64,000 nucleotides of DNA, taken from assembly GCF_030503435.1 (NCBI RefSeq), contig NZ_JAUKPO010000021.1, positions 62,001 to 126,000 on the forward strand, written 5' to 3'. The position numbers and the translations under genes were made by a program. Positions 47,696 through 57,368 of this stretch are shown piece after piece (the stretch's first letter is position 1; each line of letters starts with the position of its first letter). A model generated the notes under the pieces. That model made no database searches. It was not told where the DNA came from and worked only from the letters and a program-made list of their open reading frames with translations. Origin of the DNA: Rhodocytophaga aerolata. Lineage in GTDB: Bacteria > Bacteroidota > Bacteroidia > Cytophagales > 172606-1.

Positions 47696-48610
47696 ATGAG
47701 CCAACATCAGGTACATAGAGTAAGATCGATTGCTGAGTTTCATAAAATGAAGGGTTTGCCTTCACCTCAGCATCCTTTAATCAGTTTATTTGATTACAGC
47801 AGCTTTGAATGCTCCAAAGAAATAAACAATAAGAATTTTGTATTCGATTTTTATCACATCTCTATCAAACGGAGTGTGGGTGCTAAATTCAAGTATGGCC
47901 AGAATCATTACGATTTCGAGGATGGAGTTATGTTTTTTATAGCACCCAATCAGGTTTTTGGCATTGAAAAAATTGAAGAAATTGCCACAACTAAAAGTGG
48001 CTGGGTATTAATGATACATCCTGATTTTTTATGGAACACTCCCCTGGCAAAAAATATAAACCAATATGAGTTCTTTGGCTATGCAGTAAATGAAGCGTTG
48101 TTTCTTTCCGAAAAGGAAGAAGCAACGCTCAATGCTATAGTTAAAAATATCGAACAGGAATACAATGCTAATTTAGATAAGTTCAGCCAAAATATAATTG
48201 TTTCTCAAATTGAGACCTTACTTAATTACTCCGACCGCTTTTACCAAAGACAATTTCTAACCCATAAAGTTAATAATCATAAAATTTTAGCGCATGTAGA
48301 GAAGATCATCGAAGATTATTTCAATAATGAAAATACAACAGGTTTACCTAGCGTCCAACACATTGCTCATTCGTTGAATATATCTCCCATGTACTTAAGC
48401 AGCTTATTAAAATCTCTAACAGGGCTAACCACACAACAACATATTCATGAAAAATTGATAGAAAAAGCAAAAGAAAAACTATCAACCACTGAATTAACAG
48501 TTTCGGAAATTGCTTTTCAATTAGGCTTTGAGCACAGTCAGAGCTTCTCGAAATTATTTAAAAATAAAACTAGGGTGTCACCCATAGAATTTAGAAGTTC
48601 ATTTAACTGA
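47696..48610 (+). CDS. AraC-family transcriptional regulator
   Basis: A 304-residue regulator with an N-terminal cupin-type sensor (QHPLISLFDYSSFECSK ... DGVMFFIAPNQVFGIEK) and a C-terminal AraC domain (VQHIAHSLNISPMYLSSLLKSLTGL and VSEIAFQLGFEHSQSFSKLFKNKT). It is a clear paralogue of the regulator at 56448-57368, sharing the MGLPxPxHPLIS opening and the HPDFLWNTPLA segment. It follows the SDR gene by 21 bases and is likely co-transcribed with it and autoregulatory. Confidence 0.92.
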   Translation: MSQHQVHRVRSIAEFHKMKGLPSPQHPLISLFDYSSFECSKEINNKNFVFDFYHISIKRSVGAKFKYGQNHYDFEDGVMFFIAPNQVFGIEKIEEIATTKSGWVLMIHPDFLWNTPLAKNINQYEFFGYAVNEALFLSEKEEATLNAIVKNIEQEYNANLDKFSQNIIVSQIETLLNYSDRFYQRQFLTHKVNNHKILAHVEKIIEDYFNNENTTGLPSVQHIAHSLNISPMYLSSLLKSLTGLTTQQHIHEKLIEKAKEKLSTTELTVSEIAFQLGFEHSQSFSKLFKNKTRVSPIEFRSSFN

Positions 48611-48758: not shown

Positions 48759-49496
48759 ATGAAAAAACAGATCCATAATCCGTTCATTCTTGCCCTTAAA
48801 GCCCGCAACCTCACTGTAGAAATTCATCATCATTCTGCCTATCAAATCGTTTTATCAAACGACACGCCCTTTAATTCAACCATCAGCGGAGTACTCTTTG
48901 AACGTATTCACGGCTTTTTGATCAAACCACATGTCACACATTTTTGCGTTGCCGAAAAAGGAACATTGAATGTTTTAAATATAGAACCCTACTCAACTAT
49001 TGGTTTGGAACTAGCAAGCAGATTTAAAGAAAATCAGGAGTATATTGTTTTCGACTCACCCCCAGAAACGAATGCTTTCTTTCAGACACCAAAAGACAGT
49101 TTAGATGTTAACAATATAGTTGATGCTTTGCTGTCTCAATTACCTGATGCCCACTATGATGAAAGAGTTACAAAAATAGTTGAATACATTAAGGCGAATT
49201 ACTTTCAAACAGAGATAACACCGCAAACATTTGCCGATATAGTTTTCCTTTCGCCATCCCGTTTAGCGTCACTCTTTAAACAACAAACTGGTAGTAGTTT
49301 ATCTAAATATTTACTGTGGACACGGTTACGCCAGGCAATCTATCTCACACTTTCTGACAAGGATAGAAGCCTTACCGATATTGCCTACGATACCGGCTTC
49401 TATGACCTCCCACAATTCAATAAGTATATGTACGAAATGTTTGGAATGCCTCCTAAAGCCCTAAAGTACAATAGTGATTTGATTCAAGTTTATTAG
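48759..49496 (+). CDS. AraC-family regulator whose 3' end matches the operator repeats
   Basis: A 245-residue regulator with a short, non-cupin-like sensing part (to about 130) and a C-terminal AraC domain (TFADIVFLSPSRLASLFKQQTGSSLSKYLLW and LTDIAYDTGFYDLPQFNKYMYEMFG). Its last eight residues are NSDLIQVY, encoded by a sequence that is repeated, one or two bases changed, in front of four genes further downstream (see the regulatory features at 49701, 51566, 52194 and 54051). This makes it the prime candidate regulator of the reductase island, or the source of those repeats. A terminator hairpin follows about 50 bases after the stop. Confidence 0.9.
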   Translation: MKKQIHNPFILALKARNLTVEIHHHSAYQIVLSNDTPFNSTISGVLFERIHGFLIKPHVTHFCVAEKGTLNVLNIEPYSTIGLELASRFKENQEYIVFDSPPETNAFFQTPKDSLDVNNIVDALLSQLPDAHYDERVTKIVEYIKANYFQTEITPQTFADIVFLSPSRLASLFKQQTGSSLSKYLLWTRLRQAIYLTLSDKDRSLTDIAYDTGFYDLPQFNKYMYEMFGMPPKALKYNSDLIQVY

Positions 49497-49516
49497 CCGG
49501 GCTCTACCCCCTTTTG
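49473..49516 (+). promoter_or_regulatory. AraC 3'-end copy of the operator module (probably not a promoter)
   Basis: The block GTGATTTGATTCAAGTTTA at the end of the coding sequence is followed exactly 20 bases later by TTTG, as in the four upstream-of-gene copies, but the CAnY before TTTG is replaced by CCCT and a terminator hairpin follows. This is best read as the coding ancestor of the operator block. Confidence 0.4.
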
Positions 49517-49549
49517 TATTCTCGTTTAACACGGCGGATAGGTTACTAA

Positions 49550-49580
49550 AGGCACCTTCATTTAAAGGTGCCTCTAGCTT
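49550..49580 (+). terminator. rho-independent terminator after the AraC gene
   Basis: AGGCACCTT (49550-49558) pairs perfectly with AAGGTGCCT (49565-49573), then the sequence runs through CTAGCTTTT. It closes the SDR-AraC-AraC stretch and separates it from the next promoter. Confidence 0.7.
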
Positions 49581-49700
49581 TTATAGCTCATCCCATTTTC
49601 AAAAAGGCAAAAGTTATCCTATATACAGATGTTATTTTGATATTTTTACTATACCTATTTTGATTTACTCATAATAAAGTCCTATCACCTTAGGCACAAC

Positions 49701-49744
49701 AGTGATCTGATACAAGTTTGACAAGCTGGTTGTTATCAACTTTG
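49701..49744 (+). promoter_or_regulatory. operator/promoter module 1
   Basis: The block GTGATCTGATACAAGTTT, 20 bases, then TTTG at 49741-49744 preceded by CAAC. TTTG with a CAnY or TAnn in front is the Bacteroidota -7 box pattern; the block overlaps the -33 position. The start of the MDR reductase gene is 33 bases after the box. Confidence 0.65.
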
Positions 49745-49776
49745 TGATATCATTTTAAACAAGTAAAAAAGATATC

Positions 49777-50721
49777 ATGAAAGCAATCGTGTATCAAAAG
49801 TTTGGAAACATAGATGTTTTGCAAACTCTGGAACAACCAAAACCTACTATTCAATCAGATCAGGTACTAATAAAAGTAAAAGCATTTTCTATCAATCCAA
49901 TGGATTGGAAAATCAGAAAAGGTGAAATGACATTAATGTCGGGCTCAAAATTTCCAAAGCATACAGGAACTGATTTCGCTGGCATCGTTGAAGATATCGG
50001 GTCTTCAGTGGTTGGCTTCAAAAAAGGCGATGAAGTTTTTGGAGTGGTAAAAAATATGATGAAAGAAGGTGTTTCAGCCGAATATGTTGCCGTGCCCTCT
50101 TCTTTAGTCTGGAAAAAACCTTCTACTATCAGCTTTCCTCAAGCGGCTTCTATTCCGGTAGTTGGTACTGCGGCACTTACCGCATTACAAAAAATGGGTA
50201 CTATCACTTCACAAACTAGCATTTTGGTTAATGGTGCTACCGGTGGTTTTGGCATGTTTTTACTTCAGTTATTAAAACAACGGGGCGCACACGTAACAGC
50301 CGTTACAAGCACTGCGGGGGCAGCAATTGCAAAAAAATGGGGAGCAAATTCTATCATAGATTATACAAAAGAAAATGTGCTTTCTCAGAAAGCTACCTAC
50401 GACATTGTGATTGACTTATCAGGCAAAATGGGCTACCAAAAGGCCAGACAACTCATGAATGCTAAAGCCCTGTTTCTAAACCCAACACCCAAGCCAATCG
50501 AAATTCCCCTTGCACTTTTCAAAAACTTATTTACTGCCAAAAAGCACATCGTCATACTCTCAAGCCCCTCCACTACCTATACTGATGTGTTGCTAGGTGC
50601 AGTAAAGAATGGGTTACAGATCGAAGTGAGCAAAGTATTTCCATTTGATCAGTACAAAGAGGCCTATCAATATGCCCAGCAGGGCGGTTACATCGGAAAA
50701 GTGGCCATAGAACTTAATTAA
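49777..50721 (+). CDS. NAD(P)-dependent MDR reductase (quinone-oxidoreductase type)
   Basis: A 314-residue medium-chain dehydrogenase/reductase without structural-zinc cysteines, as in quinone oxidoreductases and enoyl reductases that reduce reactive alkenes or quinones with NADPH. The N-terminal domain shows VKVKAFSINPMDWKIRKGEM and GTDFAGIVEDIGSSV, and the cofactor domain VNGATGGFGMFLLQLLKQRGAHVTAV. The gene carries operator module 1 in its leader and is followed by the pirin gene 70 bases later. Confidence 0.9.
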   Translation: MKAIVYQKFGNIDVLQTLEQPKPTIQSDQVLIKVKAFSINPMDWKIRKGEMTLMSGSKFPKHTGTDFAGIVEDIGSSVVGFKKGDEVFGVVKNMMKEGVSAEYVAVPSSLVWKKPSTISFPQAASIPVVGTAALTALQKMGTITSQTSILVNGATGGFGMFLLQLLKQRGAHVTAVTSTAGAAIAKKWGANSIIDYTKENVLSQKATYDIVIDLSGKMGYQKARQLMNAKALFLNPTPKPIEIPLALFKNLFTAKKHIVILSSPSTTYTDVLLGAVKNGLQIEVSKVFPFDQYKEAYQYAQQGGYIGKVAIELN

Positions 50722-50791
50722 AAATAACAAAGCAGATGTTGCCTGACATCTTTTGCGAATTCCATTCACATCATCATTAATAATCACAACA

Positions 50792-51541
50792 ATGCTAACA
50801 AAAATAGACAATGCCATTAAATATGGGAAACAGCATGGCGGCTTTGGCATACAGATTTTATATCCGGGGCTTATCCGGCCCGAGTTACACGATACCGGTT
50901 TTTCCAGCATAGGAAGAATAGACCATGCGCGCATAACTCCAGGAACACTTATTCCCATGCATCCACATAAAGATGATGAGATCCTCACCTATTTGAGAAG
51001 TGGCAAAGTAAAACATCTTGACTCCCAAAAAAACACTGACCTTATCTCAAATCAAAGATTGATGGTGATGAACGCAGGGGCAAACTTTTATCACGAAGAA
51101 AGGGTGTTAGAGGAAGGAGGTGTTTTAGAAGGGCTACAAATATTCATCAGGCCGGAAACAGCTGGTCTTCCCCCTCAAGTTCAATTTTATCAATTGCCTG
51201 AAACGTACAGTATCAACCACTGGCGAAAAATAGCCGGTAAAGGCGATGATTACCCACTGCAAATCAGAAGTAATACCCATTTGATGGATCTGCGCTTAGA
51301 AAAGGGTGAAGAAATTCTCTTACCCGAAACACCGTCTGAAAATTCTGCCTTCCTGTTCTATGTATTTGACGGAAAAATAAATGTCAATGAAACCATAGCT
51401 CTTGTCACAGGGGAGAGTGCATTGATTGAAAAGGAAAGTCCAACATTCCACGCAGTTGAAACAAGTGATATTGTACTGTTCATTACACTAACAAACGGGC
51501 TATACTTTGACGGCGGAATGTATAGTGGCAATCTCCACTGA
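50792..51541 (+). CDS. pirin-family protein
   Basis: A 249-residue bicupin of the pirin family. The metal site of the N-terminal barrel is visible as MHPHKDDEILTYLRSGKVKH, with the second half carrying SALIEKESPTFHAV. Bacterial pirins such as YhhW act as quercetin 2,3-dioxygenases or as metal-dependent redox sensors. I start it at the ATG at 50792 because the frame upstream begins with a TTG and lacks the LTKIDNAIKYG start. It follows the MDR reductase gene by 70 bases, so the two are probably one unit under module 1. Confidence 0.9.
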   Translation: MLTKIDNAIKYGKQHGGFGIQILYPGLIRPELHDTGFSSIGRIDHARITPGTLIPMHPHKDDEILTYLRSGKVKHLDSQKNTDLISNQRLMVMNAGANFYHEERVLEEGGVLEGLQIFIRPETAGLPPQVQFYQLPETYSINHWRKIAGKGDDYPLQIRSNTHLMDLRLEKGEEILLPETPSENSAFLFYVFDGKINVNETIALVTGESALIEKESPTFHAVETSDIVLFITLTNGLYFDGGMYSGNLH

Positions 51542-51565
51542 TTACTTGGCAATCAAAGCAAGAAC

Positions 51566-51609
51566 AGTGATTTGATACAAGTTTATCCCTTTCAATTAAA
51601 GCAATTTTG
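51566..51609 (+). promoter_or_regulatory. operator/promoter module 2
   Basis: The block GTGATTTGATACAAGTTTA, 20 bases, then TTTG at 51606-51609 preceded by CAAT. It starts 24 bases after the pirin stop and its box is 40 bases upstream of the SRPBCC start. The block would encode NSDLIQVY in one frame, as at the end of the AraC gene, but is non-coding here. Confidence 0.65.
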
Positions 51610-51648
51610 TATTGTAATCGAGTAACAACTACTAAATCATCCTGAAAA

Positions 51649-52198
51649 TGACAACTACTAAAGAAACGAAAGATCCCAACAAAAGTCCTGAGATAACCCT
51701 TGCAATGACCATCCATTCTCAAATTGACAGGGCTTTCAATTACATCGCTCCAATCAACTTGATGCACACTTTCGGGGAAACGCCATGATTCCGGCAATCA
51801 TTGATACAAGCGTAAAACAAGGATGGAATAAAGCAGGCCTGCAACGGACAGTTTATTTTAAAGATGGATCAACCTCTCAGGAAACCCTTCTAACAGTACA
51901 TGAGCCCACTTCCTTTTCATACAAGAACGAACATTTTACTTCGAGAGCACTTTCAGCACTCCTTAAAAGACTTGAGGGAGAATGGCTCTTCACTGATTTG
52001 GGAAATAACAAAACAAAAATCGAATGGACTTACCGGGCTGTTCCAACCAATTTTCTCACCAGGTTTATAGTCAAGTCGGTGCTGATGAAAGCTGTGCAAT
52101 CCATGCTTAAAAATGCACTAGATATAATAAAACGTGATTTGGAGAGCGGGCAGTTAGAAAATGGAACTACCTGGAAAGTACCATCTCAAGAACAGTGA
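51649..52198 (+). pseudogene. SRPBCC-family gene with a one-base frameshift
   Basis: From the ATG at 51649 the frame encodes MTTTKETKDPNKSPEITLAM, then HSQIDRAFNYIAPINLMHTFG, and stops at 51788. The following frame, offset by one, continues with NAMIPAIIDTSVKQGWNKAGLQ and the SRPBCC body to a stop at 52198 (SETLL, EGEWLFTDLG, TKIEWTYRAVP). Together they look like one ~180-residue START/polyketide-cyclase-like protein, interrupted near 51768 by the loss of one base in CACACTTTCGGGG. It is either an inactivated gene or a sequence error. It still has a complete operator module in front. Confidence 0.75.
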
Positions 52199-52237
52199 TT
52201 TGATACAAGTTTTACTTTTTTAATCACCACATCTTTA
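52194..52237 (+). promoter_or_regulatory. operator/promoter module 3
   Basis: The block GTGATTTGATACAAGTTTT, 20 bases, then TTTA at 52234-52237 preceded by CATC. It overlaps the stop of the SRPBCC gene (TGA lies inside GTGATTT) and its box is 38 bases upstream of the NmrA-like start. The last base of the box (TTTA for TTTG) is the only deviation among the four. Confidence 0.6.
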
Positions 52238-52274
52238 CATAGTAATTAATCAACAACCATTTAAACATAATAAA

Positions 52275-53171
52275 ATGAAAAAGAAAATAGTCATTCTCGG
52301 AGCTACTGGAACCATTGGCAGCAAAATTTCTGAAAACCTTTTACATGACGGCCATCAGGTAACATTGATCGCAAGGCACACCGAAAAGTTAGAGAAATAC
52401 CGCAGTCTGGGTGCCGAAATCATTTCAGCAGATATCACCGATGTGGAAACGCTGACAAGTGCCTTTAAAAATGCCGATAGTGCATTTGTATTAGTACCTG
52501 ATAATGTAAAAGCCGAAAACACAAGAGCTTATCAAAGACAGGTAACTGGCAGGCTACTTGAAGCCATCGAAAAGTCTACTATCAAATACATTGTCAATAT
52601 GAGCAGTGTGGGCTCTCACATGCATGAAGGCAATGGCATGATGGGGGGAACCGGTGAACAGGAAGTCAGATTAAATCAGCTCGAAGCAGTAAACGTACTG
52701 CACATTCGTTCAGCCTATTTCATGGAAAATTTCTTACGAACAATTGGGTTGGTTAAAAAGATGGGATTCAATGGTACAGTAGCAGATGGCGACCATTCAA
52801 TACCCATGGTAGCCACAAAAGATGTAGCTAAAATAGCAGCTAACCATTTAGCTAATCTTGACTTCAAGGGTAAAAGTGTTCATGCTGTCATGGGACCTAA
52901 AGACTATACGTATAGAGAGTTTACCAGCATTATTGGGAAAGCCATTAACAATCCCGATTTGCCCTATGTGCAAATTCCGGTAGAGCAGGCGACACAAGCC
53001 TTTTTAAGCAACGGTTTTACAGAAGATTTTGCCAATAATTTAATTGAGATGGGGACAGCCATTAAAAGCGGCTTCATGAATTATCAAAAAAGAGATCATT
53101 CCACGACCACTCCCACTACAGCAGAGGACTTCGTAAAGGAGGTGTATTTCCCTGCCTACAATAAACAATAA
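52275..53171 (+). CDS. NmrA-like NAD(P)-binding protein
   Basis: A 298-residue atypical SDR. The N-terminal Rossmann motif is ILGATGTIGSKISENLL near residue 7, the acidic residue at the end of strand 2 is replaced by ARH, which suits NADP, and VNMSSVGSHMHEGNG covers the catalytic-site region. Members reduce or sense NADP status; the substrate is unknown. Operator module 3 lies in its leader. An SDR gene follows 90 bases later and may be co-transcribed. It resembles the minus-strand protein at 57377-58279. Confidence 0.9.
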   Translation: MKKKIVILGATGTIGSKISENLLHDGHQVTLIARHTEKLEKYRSLGAEIISADITDVETLTSAFKNADSAFVLVPDNVKAENTRAYQRQVTGRLLEAIEKSTIKYIVNMSSVGSHMHEGNGMMGGTGEQEVRLNQLEAVNVLHIRSAYFMENFLRTIGLVKKMGFNGTVADGDHSIPMVATKDVAKIAANHLANLDFKGKSVHAVMGPKDYTYREFTSIIGKAINNPDLPYVQIPVEQATQAFLSNGFTEDFANNLIEMGTAIKSGFMNYQKRDHSTTTPTTAEDFVKEVYFPAYNKQ

Positions 53172-53261
53172 GATCAAATACCTATTTGGCTGATGGGAAA
53201 TAGTAATCCGTTCACCATTGGTTAAATAGCCTTCACACCAATCATCATAAAATATACGAAG

Positions 53262-54002
53262 ATGAAATCAGTATTAGTTACAGGAGCCAATAAAGGCATT
53301 GGCCTGGAAACGGCAAAACAACTCTTACAAAAGGGTTTTCATGTTTATCTGGGAAGCCGTGATGTAGAGAATGGATGGGAAGCAGTTGAAAAGTTAAAAG
53401 CAGAAGGACTCACCAGTGTAGAAGCAGTGCAGTTGGATGTAACGGATGAAAATTCAGTTAAAGCTGCCCGTGAAGCAATCGGTAAAAAGACAGATGTTTT
53501 AGATGTTCTCATCAACAATGCAGGAATTAATGGAGGCCCCCCCCCTTATAGTGCCCTTGGGGCAAGTTCAGATGAGCTTACCGCAGCATTTAATACCAAT
53601 GTAATTGGCGTAGCAAGAGTTACGCAGGCTTTTATTGATTTATTGCGAAAATCACCCCAGCCAAGAATTGTGAATGTAAGTACCAGCGTAGGTTCGCTAT
53701 CACTGCAGAGCAATCCTGAATGGCCGGTTTACAACTATGCCAAATTTGCAGTTTATGCTTCTTCAAAAGCTGCTTTGAATATGTACACCATTCACTTAGC
53801 GTACGAGCTGCGGGGTACTCCTTTTAAAGTAAATGCAGTTTGCCCGGGCTATACAAAGACTGATTTTACCGGCCATAATGGAGCTGATGTTGAAGTTGCC
53901 GGAAGACGTATTGTAAAATACGCATTGATTGGCCAGGAGGGACCTACAGGTAAATTTTTCAGTGAAGAAACTAATCCTGAAACTGGCGAAATCCCCTGGT
54001 AA
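53262..54002 (+). CDS. SDR-family oxidoreductase
   Basis: A 246-residue classical SDR: cofactor loop TGANKGIGLETA near residue 7, NNAG motif LINNAGINGG, Ser in VNVSTSVGSL, catalytic Tyr-Lys in YASSKAAL. The GPTGKFFSEETNPETGEIPW end is shared with the SDR at 59233-59973, a close paralogue (identical runs such as LLRKSPQPRIVNVS). Reductases of this type act on quinones or carbonyls. It follows the NmrA-like gene and precedes operator module 4. Confidence 0.92.
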   Translation: MKSVLVTGANKGIGLETAKQLLQKGFHVYLGSRDVENGWEAVEKLKAEGLTSVEAVQLDVTDENSVKAAREAIGKKTDVLDVLINNAGINGGPPPYSALGASSDELTAAFNTNVIGVARVTQAFIDLLRKSPQPRIVNVSTSVGSLSLQSNPEWPVYNYAKFAVYASSKAALNMYTIHLAYELRGTPFKVNAVCPGYTKTDFTGHNGADVEVAGRRIVKYALIGQEGPTGKFFSEETNPETGEIPW

Positions 54003-54050
54003 CAAAAACATAAAGCCATCAGTGAATTCAGTCATCATCACTTTAAAAAC

Positions 54051-54094
54051 AGTGATTTGATACAAGTTTATCCTCTCTTATCCAGACATCTTTG
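54051..54094 (+). promoter_or_regulatory. operator/promoter module 4
   Basis: The block GTGATTTGATACAAGTTTA, 20 bases, then TTTG at 54091-54094 preceded by CATC. The Old Yellow Enzyme start is 35 bases after the box. A longer reading frame that begins inside this block with a non-ATG codon is an artefact of the repeat. Confidence 0.65.
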
Positions 54095-54128: not shown

Positions 54129-55211
54129 ATGAAATTATTAGAAAAAACACAGTTAGGAAATTTAAACTTAAAGAACAGAATGGTCATGTCTTCCATGACC
54201 AGAAGCCGGGCAGACATGTACGGTGTAGTAGGTGATATGACAGTTGAATACTATACGCAAAGAGTGAGTGCTGGTCTCCTATTCACAGAGGCGATCAGAA
54301 TAAGTGAACAGGCAACCGGCAGTCCGCTTACACCTGGCATTTACACAAGCGAGCAGATCGAGGCGTGGAAAAAGGTTACCAAATCTGTACACGATCATGG
54401 AGGTCTTATTATCGCCCAACTCTGGCACACAGGCCGTGCAGGTCACTCTACTGACAGGAATGGTAAATTACCCCTTGCGCCATCTCCGCTAGCCATACAA
54501 GGAATGCAACATTTCACTTCCCAAGGTTTAAAGGATTATGAAACGCCCCAGGAAATTACCATTGACCAAATCAGGCAAACAGTAAAGGACTACGGGCAGG
54601 CGGCCAAAAATGCGATAGCAGCCGGTTTTGATGGGGTTGAACTTCATGCTGCCAATGGTTATCTGCCAAATCAGTTTTTAGCAGAGAGTGCCAATCAGAG
54701 GACGGATGACTATGGCGGCAGTATTCCCAATAAAGCCCGTTTTGTGCTAGAAGTAATGCAGGAGTTGATCACTGCTGTGGGCGGAGATAAAGTAGGCATT
54801 AAAATTTCGCCTTTTCATCCGTATGGCAATATGGTTTTGAATAATCCTGTTGGCACATACACTTACCTGATTGAAGAGCTGAACAAATTAGATTTTGCCT
54901 ATGTCGAGTTAATGAAGCGAAGCCCGTACTTCCCTTCGCCTGCGCACTATCCGGCGGATAACGAAATAGAACTGTTTGGCAGAATGATACAGCAAACGGT
55001 TATTGCCAATACGGCTTATGATAAAGCAACCGCTGAAGCAGAACTTAAAAAAGGCATAGCTGGGCTTGTCTCATTTGGAACACTGTTTCTGGCAAATCCC
55101 GATTTACCAAAACGGTTTGAAAAAGATGCCGCACTTAACCAACCAGACCGGGCAACCATGTTTGGCGGCGGAGCACAAGGGTATATCGATTATCCATTTT
55201 TAAATAATTAA
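54129..55211 (+). CDS. nemA: alkene reductase of the Old Yellow Enzyme family
   Basis: A 360-residue FMN-dependent TIM-barrel reductase that uses NAD(P)H to reduce activated C=C bonds in enones, maleimides and nitro compounds. Visible features are the N-terminal barrel strand with NRMVMSSMTRSRA, the flavin and substrate site HTGRAGHSTDRNG, the GVELHAANGYLPNQFL and RTDDYGGSIPNKARF stretches typical for NemA/OYE, and LVSFGTLFLANPDLPKRF near the end. I use the ATG at 54129; the longer frame upstream consists of the operator block and leader. An exported esterase gene follows 46 bases later. Confidence 0.93.
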   Translation: MKLLEKTQLGNLNLKNRMVMSSMTRSRADMYGVVGDMTVEYYTQRVSAGLLFTEAIRISEQATGSPLTPGIYTSEQIEAWKKVTKSVHDHGGLIIAQLWHTGRAGHSTDRNGKLPLAPSPLAIQGMQHFTSQGLKDYETPQEITIDQIRQTVKDYGQAAKNAIAAGFDGVELHAANGYLPNQFLAESANQRTDDYGGSIPNKARFVLEVMQELITAVGGDKVGIKISPFHPYGNMVLNNPVGTYTYLIEELNKLDFAYVELMKRSPYFPSPAHYPADNEIELFGRMIQQTVIANTAYDKATAEAELKKGIAGLVSFGTLFLANPDLPKRFEKDAALNQPDRATMFGGGAQGYIDYPFLNN

Positions 55212-55257: not shown

Positions 55258-56163
55258 ATGAGCACCATATTCAAATTATACTTTTCATTACCTATATTCC
55301 TTATAGGTATCGCATCCGTAAATGCACAAAACCCTATTTCCGACAGCATAATGACCAAAATAACCCAGGAAAGAGCATTCTATGAAACCTTGGGGAAAAG
55401 CTACCCGGCAGATAATTCTGTTACAGTCAATGAGGTTACAATCGCGGGAGTGAAGAGCTATTGGTTTAACGAAAAGCTTATAAACCAAAAACATATTATC
55501 GTTTATTTACACGGTGGCGTATATGCTTTAGGCAGCATCAATTCATACCGTGCCATGATAAGCCACTTAGCTAAGAACTTAAATTTGCCCATTGTATATG
55601 TGGAGTATTCTCTGGCACCTGAAAAACCTTTTCCAGCAGCAAAAAATGAAATTTTTAGTGTATACAGTGCGCTGAAAAAGAAATATCCTGAGCATACATT
55701 TACAATTATGGGAGACAGCGCAGGCGGAGGTTTAGCAATTACATTGGTGCATGACTGTATTGATTCCAAAATAGCATTACCCAAATCATTAGCCTTACTA
55801 TCTCCATGGATTGACTTGAAAACAAAAAATAATTCTTATGTAACCAAGCAATCAGTAGACCCAATATTAAGCAAAGACATGTTACATTACCATGCGCTTT
55901 TGTATGCGCCAAATAGCTTGAAAGAAGCTGATCCAAGCGAATTGAAGTTTAAACAATTTCCACCGGTATTTTTATTGGTAGGTACAGATGAAGTACTGAA
56001 TGACGATTCAAAAAATTTTTACAACTATATTAAACCTATTCAACCAAAATCAAAGCTAAAAGAATTTAAATACCAAAAACATGTTTGGCTGGTTTCACAT
56101 ATTGATTCTAAAGAGTCAATAGAGGCAATGAATGATATTAAAGCATTTATATCGGCCAACTAA
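55258..56163 (+). CDS. exported alpha/beta hydrolase, HSL-like family
   Basis: A 301-residue esterase with a signal peptide (LYFSLPIFLIGIASVNAQ). The oxyanion motif is YLHGGVYALGS near residue 84 (one glycine of the usual HGGG replaced by valine), the nucleophile elbow GDSAGGGLA, the acid in GTDEVLNDD, and the histidine in KHVWLVSH. Short gap behind the alkene reductase gene suggests they share module 4. A long inverted repeat after its stop could terminate both this and the convergent minus-strand gene. Confidence 0.88.
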   Translation: MSTIFKLYFSLPIFLIGIASVNAQNPISDSIMTKITQERAFYETLGKSYPADNSVTVNEVTIAGVKSYWFNEKLINQKHIIVYLHGGVYALGSINSYRAMISHLAKNLNLPIVYVEYSLAPEKPFPAAKNEIFSVYSALKKKYPEHTFTIMGDSAGGGLAITLVHDCIDSKIALPKSLALLSPWIDLKTKNNSYVTKQSVDPILSKDMLHYHALLYAPNSLKEADPSELKFKQFPPVFLLVGTDEVLNDDSKNFYNYIKPIQPKSKLKEFKYQKHVWLVSHIDSKESIEAMNDIKAFISAN

Positions 56164-56447: not shown

Positions 56448-57368
56448 TCAAGTAAACAGTTGCCTAAATTCTAATGGCGACTGATTGGTTTTGGTCTTGA
56501 ATAATTTGCTGAATGATTGGGGATGTTCAAAGCCTAATTCGTAAGCAATTTCACTGACCGATAAGTTGGTGGTAGAGAGTTTCTCCTTTGCTTTTTCAAT
56601 AACTTTGTTGTGGATATGCTGCTGCGTGCTTTGGCCGGTCAGTACTTTGAGCAAGCCGCTTAAATAATTGGGCGATACATGTAAGCTATCGGCAATACAT
56701 TGCACAGTAGGCAAGCCATTGTTTTCCACAGCATCGCTGTTAAAGTGTGTAGTTAATATTTCTTCCAGGCGGCTCAGGATTTGGTGATTCGCAATTTTGC
56801 GAGTCAGGAACTGCCGGTGGTAAAACCGTTCAGCATAGATCAGCAAGAGTTCCAGTTGGGCGATCATTACCGGTTGGCTGAAGTTATCCGGGTTACCTAC
56901 ATATTCCTGCCCAATACTTTGCATAAGGGTGATAAGGGTGGATTCTTCTCTGGGCGATAGAAATAAGGCTTCATTTACTGAATAACCGAAATATTCGTAT
57001 TGCCTTATGGTTCTAGCTAAAGGTGTATTCCATAAAAAGTCAGGATGGATGAGTAACATCCAGCCCGACCGTTTGGGTTCTTCCTCTTTATAAGCCTCTA
57101 CGCCATACACTTGATCGGGCGCAATAAAAAACAAAACGCCTTCATTGAAATCATATTCCTGCTGCCCGTATCTAAAGCGTATATTTACGTTCCGCTTCAG
57201 GGCAATCGAATAAAAATCCAGTACATAATTTTGGGGTCCCCGGTCCCTCACCTGTTTTACGTTTTCGAAATTGATGACACTTATCAACGGGTGCTCCGGC
57301 TTGGGAAGCCCCATGTGCAGGTGGTATTGACTGATGGTTTTAAAGCGGAGCAGGGGTAAGTTGGCCAT
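56448..57368 (-). CDS. AraC-family transcriptional regulator
   Basis: A 306-residue paralogue of the regulator at 47696-48610, with the same MGLPKPEHPLISV opening, cupin-type sensor (YDFNEGVLFFIAPDQVYGVEA) and C-terminal helix-turn-helix pair (VQCIADSLHVSPNYLSGLLKVLTGQ, VSEIAYELGFEHPQSFSKLFKTKT). It lies eight bases after the NmrA-like gene on the same strand, so the two are one transcript and probably autoregulated. The likely target is the same NmrA-like gene or the nearby reductases. Confidence 0.92.
   Translation of the reverse strand: MANLPLLRFKTISQYHLHMGLPKPEHPLISVINFENVKQVRDRGPQNYVLDFYSIALKRNVNIRFRYGQQEYDFNEGVLFFIAPDQVYGVEAYKEEEPKRSGWMLLIHPDFLWNTPLARTIRQYEYFGYSVNEALFLSPREESTLITLMQSIGQEYVGNPDNFSQPVMIAQLELLLIYAERFYHRQFLTRKIANHQILSRLEEILTTHFNSDAVENNGLPTVQCIADSLHVSPNYLSGLLKVLTGQSTQQHIHNKVIEKAKEKLSTTNLSVSEIAYELGFEHPQSFSKLFKTKTNQSPLEFRQLFT

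Follow-up and report, generated by a model that had tools for sequence, protein, structure and literature searches.

Why should one short block of DNA recur ahead of several enzyme genes and also form the end of a nearby regulator gene, and could it be the operator of that regulator in both settings? In the window (the whole 64-kb stretch of DNA that was analysed), a pattern search for GTGATYTGATACAAGTTT returned five copies, all on the + strand, against a shuffled expectation of 0.15 at ≤3 mismatches, in agreement with the original prediction of four gene-proximal copies and a fifth in the araC end. Three blocks match perfectly (starts at 51567, 52195 and 54052) and two with one mismatch each (49474 and 49702), one base higher than the coordinates first assigned. 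The conserved block is thus real, but conservation extends beyond 18 bp, to a 24-bp word from position -6 to 18 of the block. Four copies stand ahead of genes, each followed by a -7 box at a constant distance, and from these boxes to the ATGs at 49777, 51648, 52275 and 54129 the spacing is 32, 38, 37 and 34 nt, respectively. The features of the locus are as follows:

48759..49496, + strand: AraC-type regulator of 245 aa with C-terminal NSDLIQVY, presumed activator of the regulon (HTH_18, block-adjoining homologues)
49468..49491, + strand: predicted in-gene operator, lying in the last araC codons (18-mer with 1 mismatch)
49509..49516, + strand: -7 box remnant CCCTTTTG downstream of the in-gene operator at the standard distance (from sequence)
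49550..49573, + strand: terminator-like hairpin downstream of araC, ahead of the separate operator
49696..49719, + strand: predicted operator of the MDR reductase gene
49737..49744, + strand: -7 box CAACTTTG of the MDR reductase promoter
49777..50721, + strand: MDR family quinone/alkene-type reductase (ADH_N, ADH_zinc_N_2; TIGR02824 below cut-off)
50792..51541, + strand: pirin family protein (Pirin 9.7e-14 on the longer ORF 50753-51541; ATG at 50792)
51561..51584, + strand: predicted operator of the SRPBCC gene
51602..51609, + strand: -7 box CAATTTTG of the SRPBCC promoter
51648..52198, + strand: SRPBCC gene with broken frame (pieces 51648-51788 and 51785-52198; Polyketide_cyc2 1.9e-07 on the second piece)
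52189..52212, + strand: predicted operator of the NmrA gene
52230..52237, + strand: -7 box CATCTTTA of the NmrA promoter
52275..53171, + strand: NmrA-like NAD(P)-binding protein (NmrA 9.2e-20)
53262..54002, + strand: short-chain dehydrogenase (adh_short 1.8e-44)
54046..54069, + strand: predicted operator of the alkene reductase gene
54087..54094, + strand: -7 box CATCTTTG of the alkene reductase promoter
54129..55211, + strand: old-yellow-enzyme family alkene reductase (Oxidored_FMN 6.9e-77; NF007899 below cut-off)
55258..56163, + strand: alpha/beta-hydrolase esterase (Abhydrolase_3 1.5e-37)

We infer that the esterase gene probably closes the alkene reductase operon. The 48759-49496 protein matches Pfam HTH_18 above the cut-off (E 2.6e-17) and hence has the C-terminal two-HTH DNA-binding domain; a cupin-like N-terminal sensor domain is a feature of many AraC/XylS members, and residues 1-157 of this protein gave no Pfam match. 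H23, H25, H61 and C63 are invariant in all regulator rows that cover them. A structure model built from 15 rows was poor (pLDDT 55) and uninformative on the tail, and the regulator had no match at 1e-20 in the plasmid collection. General scans of the window region returned sigma-70 style promoters (15 found, 15.4 expected) and terminator-like sites (5 found, 5.2 expected) at chance level; the window's hairpin gave z -2.6 against a shuffled control, a control run for this hairpin alone among those recorded.

The distance between block and -7 box is kept well beyond the window. Across 37 Bacteroidota loci, TTTG or TTTA stands exactly 21 nt behind the block in 76 of 85 copies (TTTG in 66, TTTA in 10), while no other offset between 0 and 45 has TTTG in more than 3 of the 85, as the proposed constant spacing had implied. 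Among the exceptions are two separate operators, one before an alkene reductase gene in L021 (TTGC at +21) and one before an NmrA gene in L167 (TTTC at +21). A scan gave at least 117 stretches among the matches listed, all screened for the araC gene, which was present in 16 (one a fragment); regulon genes marked four further loci (L011, L016, L036 and L055), and L160 duplicates L105. Left out of the 85-copy count, having neither araC nor a regulon gene, were L038, L041, L045, L052, L065, L067, L073, L075, L089, L092, L093, L094 and L173, and the remaining 85 stretches had the araC screen only.

Such regularity bears on the nature of the block. A recombination or mobile-element site (attC-like or a repeat), left behind when gene units were inserted after araC, would fit the gene units that stand between repeated blocks, the variation in block number and gene content between relatives' loci, and a 45-bp stretch common to the Galbibacter (L020) MDR promoter and the Maribacter (L021) NmrA promoter. 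We nevertheless rejected this reading, to which we give almost no credence, because of the strict promoter spacing (one distance to the -7 box in 76/85 copies) and direction: the gene behind, as identified with the regulon queries, points the same way as the block in 71 of the 77 promoter-type copies, an ORF does so in the other six, and the blocks do not mark unit ends regardless of promoter position. No recombinase was found among the ten window genes scanned.

The same promoters combine a fixed distance and orientation of the block over the -33/-35 region with the lack of a canonical -35/-33 element, the features of class II AraC-type promoters: the -33 TTG is not conserved (of 77 copies, 20 have G at position 19), and the first two bases of the -7 box, in the 76 copies with TTTG or TTTA, read CA 63 times and TA 5 times. 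Together with the co-occurrence with araC described below, the fixed spacing supports a promoter with a putative operator over its -33 region, as had been proposed. An AraC-type repressor sitting on the block and barring RNA polymerase until an inducer frees it would also overlap the region where sigma would bind. However, the missing -33 TTG and the mostly non-consensus -7 box (63/76 with CA, not TA) make these promoters look weak unaided, and a strictly constant distance between site and -7 box typically marks activators in contact with polymerase, so we consider repression unlikely. The transcription start had been placed about 7 nt after TTTG; in Flavobacterium psychrophilum, the excerpt of PMC9723704 locates TAnnTTTG at -12 to -5, and the start is expected about 5 nt after the G instead.

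Distribution links the block to the araC gene. Among 395 genomes of the phylum, the AraC protein (E≤1e-30) occurs in four, the window genome included, and a comparison with the block places it in the same four and in none of the other 391. All 17 protein-found araC genes (16 genomes, window included) have an operator with ≤3 mismatches at the locus, a pairing that holds down to 38% protein identity, and of 33 block copies with ≤1 mismatch counted across 13 genomes, 32 belong to an araC locus; the other, from G005, precedes NmrA and esterase genes on a different contig. These counts uphold the local regulon of MDR reductase/pirin, SRPBCC, NmrA/SDR and alkene reductase/esterase that had been put forward, except that the SRPBCC frame is broken in the window. 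A search of the whole 9.07 Mb own genome with GTGATYTGATWCAAGTTT at ≤2 mismatches recovered the window's five copies and three isolated 2-mismatch matches (one match for the reversed GTGATYTGATWCAAGTTT control); this search and the 13-genome count led us to reject a genome-wide repeat, and a genome-wide spread of blocks lacking TTTG was not encountered in the 13 genomes. Four loose-pattern matches away from araC loci, in G908, G857 and G1247, all lack TTTG at +21. The match in G857 has TTTG one base off and no AAYA before the block.

Another regulator might read the block, for example one of the AraC-type proteins encoded close by in the window at 47696-48610 and 56448-57368, which have relatives at ≥70% identity at L051 and L095 and weaker ones (27-45%) in L104, L108, L167, L168 and L169. 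Yet neither was found in the other loci examined, an absence that is local since these loci measure 4-17 kb, whereas every one of the 17 protein-found cases has the 48759 gene at its locus; we therefore hold a role for another regulator to be very improbable.

How the araC tail relates to the operator emerges from two groups of genes. In group A (11 genes), the last araC codons contain the predicted operator, with no other before the next gene, and would form that gene's promoter; the 19 genes of group B, the window's among them, have a separate operator. A -7 box follows the tail in 11/11 genes of group A and in 2/19 of group B (TTTG or TTTA, in the window and L012). Group A proteins are 35-78% identical and more diverged than those of group B (median pair identity 50% versus 81%), yet their tail synonymous sites are frozen, whereas group B retains S-D-L-I while its synonymous sites drift. 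Leaving out L165 (a near copy of L164) and, for group A, the fragment L108, 85 codon columns of group A are degenerate and conserved in amino acid, of which 5 are uniform, 4 of them in the tail (P 8e-5, kinship ignored; protein-found rows: 93 columns, 7 uniform, 4 in the tail, P 4e-4, kinship ignored); for group B, 2 of 129 such columns are uniform, none in the tail. Synonymous departures at S-D-L-I number 0/40 cells in group A and 26/76 in group B (P 7e-6 for related rows, kinship ignored), or 0/32 and 8/28 among protein-found rows (P 0.0014, kinship ignored). Contigs found by an exact block 16-mer contributed 13 of the 19 rows of group B, including L105 (= G209), which was also protein-found, and 2 of the 11 of group A. 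Synonymous sites are thus constrained where the tail DNA would serve as operator and not where it would not, kinship being ignored. L163 presents a third state, in which the operator is kept (2 mismatches) and araC ends inside it in another frame, so that the protein tail is gone. On sequence grounds, the contrast between group A, group B and L163 indicates that the tail DNA carries two separable constraints, one coding and one for the predicted operator.

Mere common descent of the tail match, with the tail copy nowhere functional as DNA, would account for its decay as DNA in group B, but it is at odds with group A, where the tail supplies the only operator before the next gene, followed by a -7 box in every case, and synonymous sites stay frozen at 35-78% protein identity; we think it most improbable. 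A recent invention of the tail is likewise rejected, as L209 (38% identity) and L170 both carry it in frame. The starred tree branches force just one origin of group B, and in five genomes outside it the sole operator is the in-gene (or at-stop) copy, which suggests that the regulon grew outward from that operator. The proposal that the operators were copied from, or co-evolved with, the araC end gains support and is sharpened by group A, with the direction of copying our interpretation. Deeper outgroups did not reveal whether operator or tail came first: the family of G540 yielded 2/220 genomes, both already known, and that of G857 5/147. In the window, the fifth copy has a TTTG-type box at the same distance and the hairpin at 49550-49573 behind it, as first described; this terminator in place of a gene would be a derived state.

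Anatomy, fixed spacing and co-occurrence are evident in the aligned DNA, and from them we consider it very likely that the block serves the 48759-49496 AraC protein as a 24-bp operator covering the -33 region, through which this protein activates a local detoxification regulon in class II fashion, with an ancestral-looking operator in the araC tail. The block, A-N-AAYAGTGATYTGATACAAGTTT, would be bound by this protein at about -53 to -30, where it would stand in for the -33 element, with a -7 box (mostly CAnYTTTG) at one fixed distance from the operator; once bound, the protein would bring in RNA polymerase in the manner of MarA/SoxS at class II promoters, activating rather than repressing. 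Quinone/alkene-type reductases, pirin, SRPBCC, NmrA/SDR and esterase would thereby be switched on, presumably by electrophile or quinone stress. In the ancestral-looking layout, the araC 3' end would both encode NSDLIQVY and serve the next gene as operator; the lineage of the window would have gained a further operator copy, often after a hairpin, between araC and the first target, releasing the in-gene copy from operator duty while its amino acids were retained. This order of events, with the operator copied outward, is a reconstruction. That copies of a promoter module, about 45 bp long, spread from an ancient coding-end operator to gene after neighbouring gene, the protein tail being an overprinted operator later kept for protein function, is conceivable but rather doubtful; if true, the regulon grew by duplicating part of its regulator's gene. 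The alternatives weighed above are partly compatible with each other.

The locus offers a natural experiment on coding and regulatory constraints in one stretch of DNA, in which some lineages keep both, some the protein only and one the operator only, and a testable example of how a regulon may grow out of one site. It also supplies Bacteroidota genetics with a regulator-promoter pair and points to a candidate regulator of electrophile or quinone detoxification genes in this phylum, for which our literature search found no paper; searches for the block (three lengths) and NSDLIQVY returned nothing related, judged by title.

Bacteria quite generally have promoters and operators that lie within the end of the preceding coding sequence, and here too transcription signals appear to lie inside a coding end. 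In the present case, the coding sequence belongs to the very protein presumed to bind, and the overlap is kept down to 38% identity, with relatives that separate both constraints. As in the Bacteroidota sigma-A promoters of the PMC9723704 excerpt, the -7 box ends in TTTG in 66 of 85 copies, but its first base is mostly C, not T, and the predicted operator takes the place of a conserved -33 TTG. At MarA/SoxS/Rob class II promoters, as outlined in the excerpt of PMC10268841, the AraC-family site overlaps the -35 region in forward orientation and no -35 element is recognisable, and the promoters described here resemble them in having a predicted site over the -33/-35 region and no -35/-33 element. 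They differ from those of enterobacteria in promoter type (a -7 box resembling TAnnTTTG), in a regulon that is local rather than global, in a regulator with an extra N-terminal half and in a predicted operator inside the regulator's own 3' end.

The window carries five + strand copies of the putative operator word GTGATYTGATACAAGTTT, lying between 49474 and 54069, where 0.15 would be expected at ≤3 mismatches, and no further match at ≤1 mismatch was found elsewhere in its own 9.07-Mb genome. Four copies are gene-proximal, and behind each, at an invariant distance, stands one of the -7 boxes CAACTTTG, CAATTTTG, CATCTTTA and CATCTTTG, with the ATGs of MDR reductase, SRPBCC, NmrA-like and old-yellow-enzyme genes 32-38 nt past these boxes. 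The fifth copy, in which ATT replaces ATA, forms the end of the AraC gene, inside the NSDLIQVY codons, and is followed at the same distance by CCCTTTTG and then a hairpin; terminator-like sites in the window region are overall not above chance. The neighbourhood comprises the following features:

48759-49496, + strand, araC gene with the in-gene operator at its end
51648-52198, SRPBCC gene behind the second operator, with a broken frame
47696-48610 and 56448-57368, two more AraC-type genes flanking the regulon
46910 and 57377, an SDR and an NmrA-like gene, respectively, beside the flanking AraC-type genes

The SRPBCC gene is a single open frame of 171-189 aa in relatives (loci L021, L079, L101, L159, L208 and L011), and the break in the window may be either a real mutation or a sequencing error.

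Among 85 block copies (≤3 mismatches) from 37 loci, 66 have a TTTG and 10 a TTTA that starts exactly 21 nt downstream of the block; at other offsets up to 45, TTTG is seen in at most 3 copies. The nine copies with neither box comprise one TTTC (L167), one TTGC (L021) and seven in-gene copies, the latter from lineages possessing a separate operator. The conserved word measures 24 bp and runs from an A at -6 (58/64) through AAYA to the block's last T; no position from -40 to -7 relative to the block exceeds 0.4 bits.

Scanning species genomes with a 16-mer of the block returned at least 117 stretches; among the matches listed, 16 contain this AraC gene, in one case as a fragment only (76-91% identity), and four more hold regulon genes; neither was present in the others inspected. 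These 20 stretches include ones from Pedobacter, Mucilaginibacter, Niastella, Chitinophaga, Dyadobacter, Flavobacterium, Galbibacter, Maribacter, Chryseobacterium and Epilithonimonas. A tandem repeat of 33-bp period in a Bacteroidales MAG (L031 6034-6115) contains GATTTGATACAA and, as far as seen, has no relation to the system.

To avoid selecting genomes by the block, we used protein searches, which found the AraC gene at E≤1e-30 in 4/395 phylum, 4/395 class and 9/291 order genomes (overlapping samples) and, with deeper queries at E≤1e-25, in 2/220 and 5/147 genomes of the G540 and G857 families. Combined, they gave 17 araC genes in 16 genomes, window included, and all 17 carry the operator (≤3 mismatches) in the gene end or behind the gene. 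At ≤1 mismatch the block occurs in the same four phylum genomes as the gene and in none of the remaining 391. Across 13 gene-bearing genomes, 32 of 33 such copies (a count that leaves out 2-mismatch hits, the G540 operator among them) sit at an araC locus; the other, on another contig of G005 ahead of NmrA and esterase genes, is compatible with a protein acting in trans. The genome G966 has two araC copies (L166 and L167), each accompanied by a set of target genes and by four or five separate operators. One of these operators precedes pirin; elsewhere pirin follows the MDR gene without its own operator.

The loci fall into two groups by what follows the gene. In group A (11 genes and a fragment) the gene after araC has no operator before it other than the in-gene one with its -7 box, which would provide its promoter, whereas in group B (19 genes, including the window) a separate operator lies 62-208 nt past the first base of the stop codon, or >1 kb away in L034 and L166. 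In 11/19 group B loci, a hairpin with a folding energy of at best or below -14.6 kcal/mol, computed without a shuffled control, stands between the gene and the separate operator. A -7 box follows the tail in 11/11 A and 2/19 B genes, the window's among the latter. Group A tails read AGT GAT YTG ATA CAA with a single exception (L209, AAA for GAT), and five of the gene's 85 amino-acid-conserved degenerate columns are uniform, four of them in the tail (P 8e-5, or 4e-4 with protein-found rows only; related rows). At S, D, L and I, synonymous departures number 0/40 cells in A versus 26/76 in B, and amino-acid changes one versus none, these counts, like the others here, resting on related rows without phylogeny correction, part of them found via the block itself. 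As group A is the more diverged (median pair identity 50%, versus 81% in B), youth does not explain its synonymous freezing. That all 19 B genes keep the S-D-L-I residues although their codons drift speaks for a protein function of this tail. Conversely, L163 (43% identity) preserves the DNA without the protein tail: the operator is retained with 2 mismatches, and the araC gene terminates within it in a different frame. Thus, the two constraints are seen apart and are separable.

In the protein tree, which is rooted by midpoint only and is in much of its extent without resolution, the B rows split into a 17-member clade (support 98/95) and the pair of G966 copies, both placed among A rows; A/B labels change twice versus 9.8 times in shuffles (bootstrap range 2), and the starred branches alone force only one change. 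The in-gene operator, in one shared frame, is present in every one of the longest-branched rows (L209, L170 and L171), and in five genomes outside B (G1268, G256, G908, G857 and G540) the operator occurs solely at the araC end, G908 and G857 having one more loose match each without TTTG at +21. The simplest story, close to the original prediction that the operators were either copied from the coding end or evolved together with it, is that the operator spread outward from there, although operators outside the araC end may instead have been lost in these genomes. An identical 45-bp stretch (block, spacer and -7 box) shared by the Maribacter NmrA and Galbibacter MDR promoters, and unlike Maribacter's own MDR promoter, suggests from one case that the module can relocate as a whole. 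The araC gene itself may have been transferred between lineages, as suggested by its absence from the window's genus-mate (G004), by the group A forms (76-78% identity) in G005 and G006, members of the same family, and by the finding of the nearest proteins in Galbibacter and Pedobacter (up to 91%).

The genes directly behind 77 promoter-type copies encode MDR reductase (33), NmrA (20), alkene reductase (8), SRPBCC (6), pirin (2), SDR (1) and esterase (1), the other six being cupin, another NmrA-type or muconolactone-isomerase-like genes, a set suggestive of a role in removing quinones, enones or similar electrophiles. Regulon genes seem to be decaying in places, because the Niastella populi pirin gene (L012 2279-2698) matches in three pieces and the Flavobacterium reichenbachii alkene reductase gene (L011 3964-5039) in two. 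No Pfam family covers the N-terminal half of the AraC protein, where HxH and HxC are invariant (H23 and H25 in 30/30, H61 and C63 in 31/31 rows); they resemble a cupin metal or thiol site and could possibly serve in sensing. Taking the box as TAnnTTTG at -12 to -5, as given in PMC9723704, the 24-bp word would occupy roughly -53 to -30 and cover the -33 region, where a TTG is not conserved among the copies. A -35 element is likewise absent from MarA-type class II promoters (PMC10268841), and this likeness, together with the placement of the word and the missing TTG, suggests that the AraC protein would activate the block promoters.
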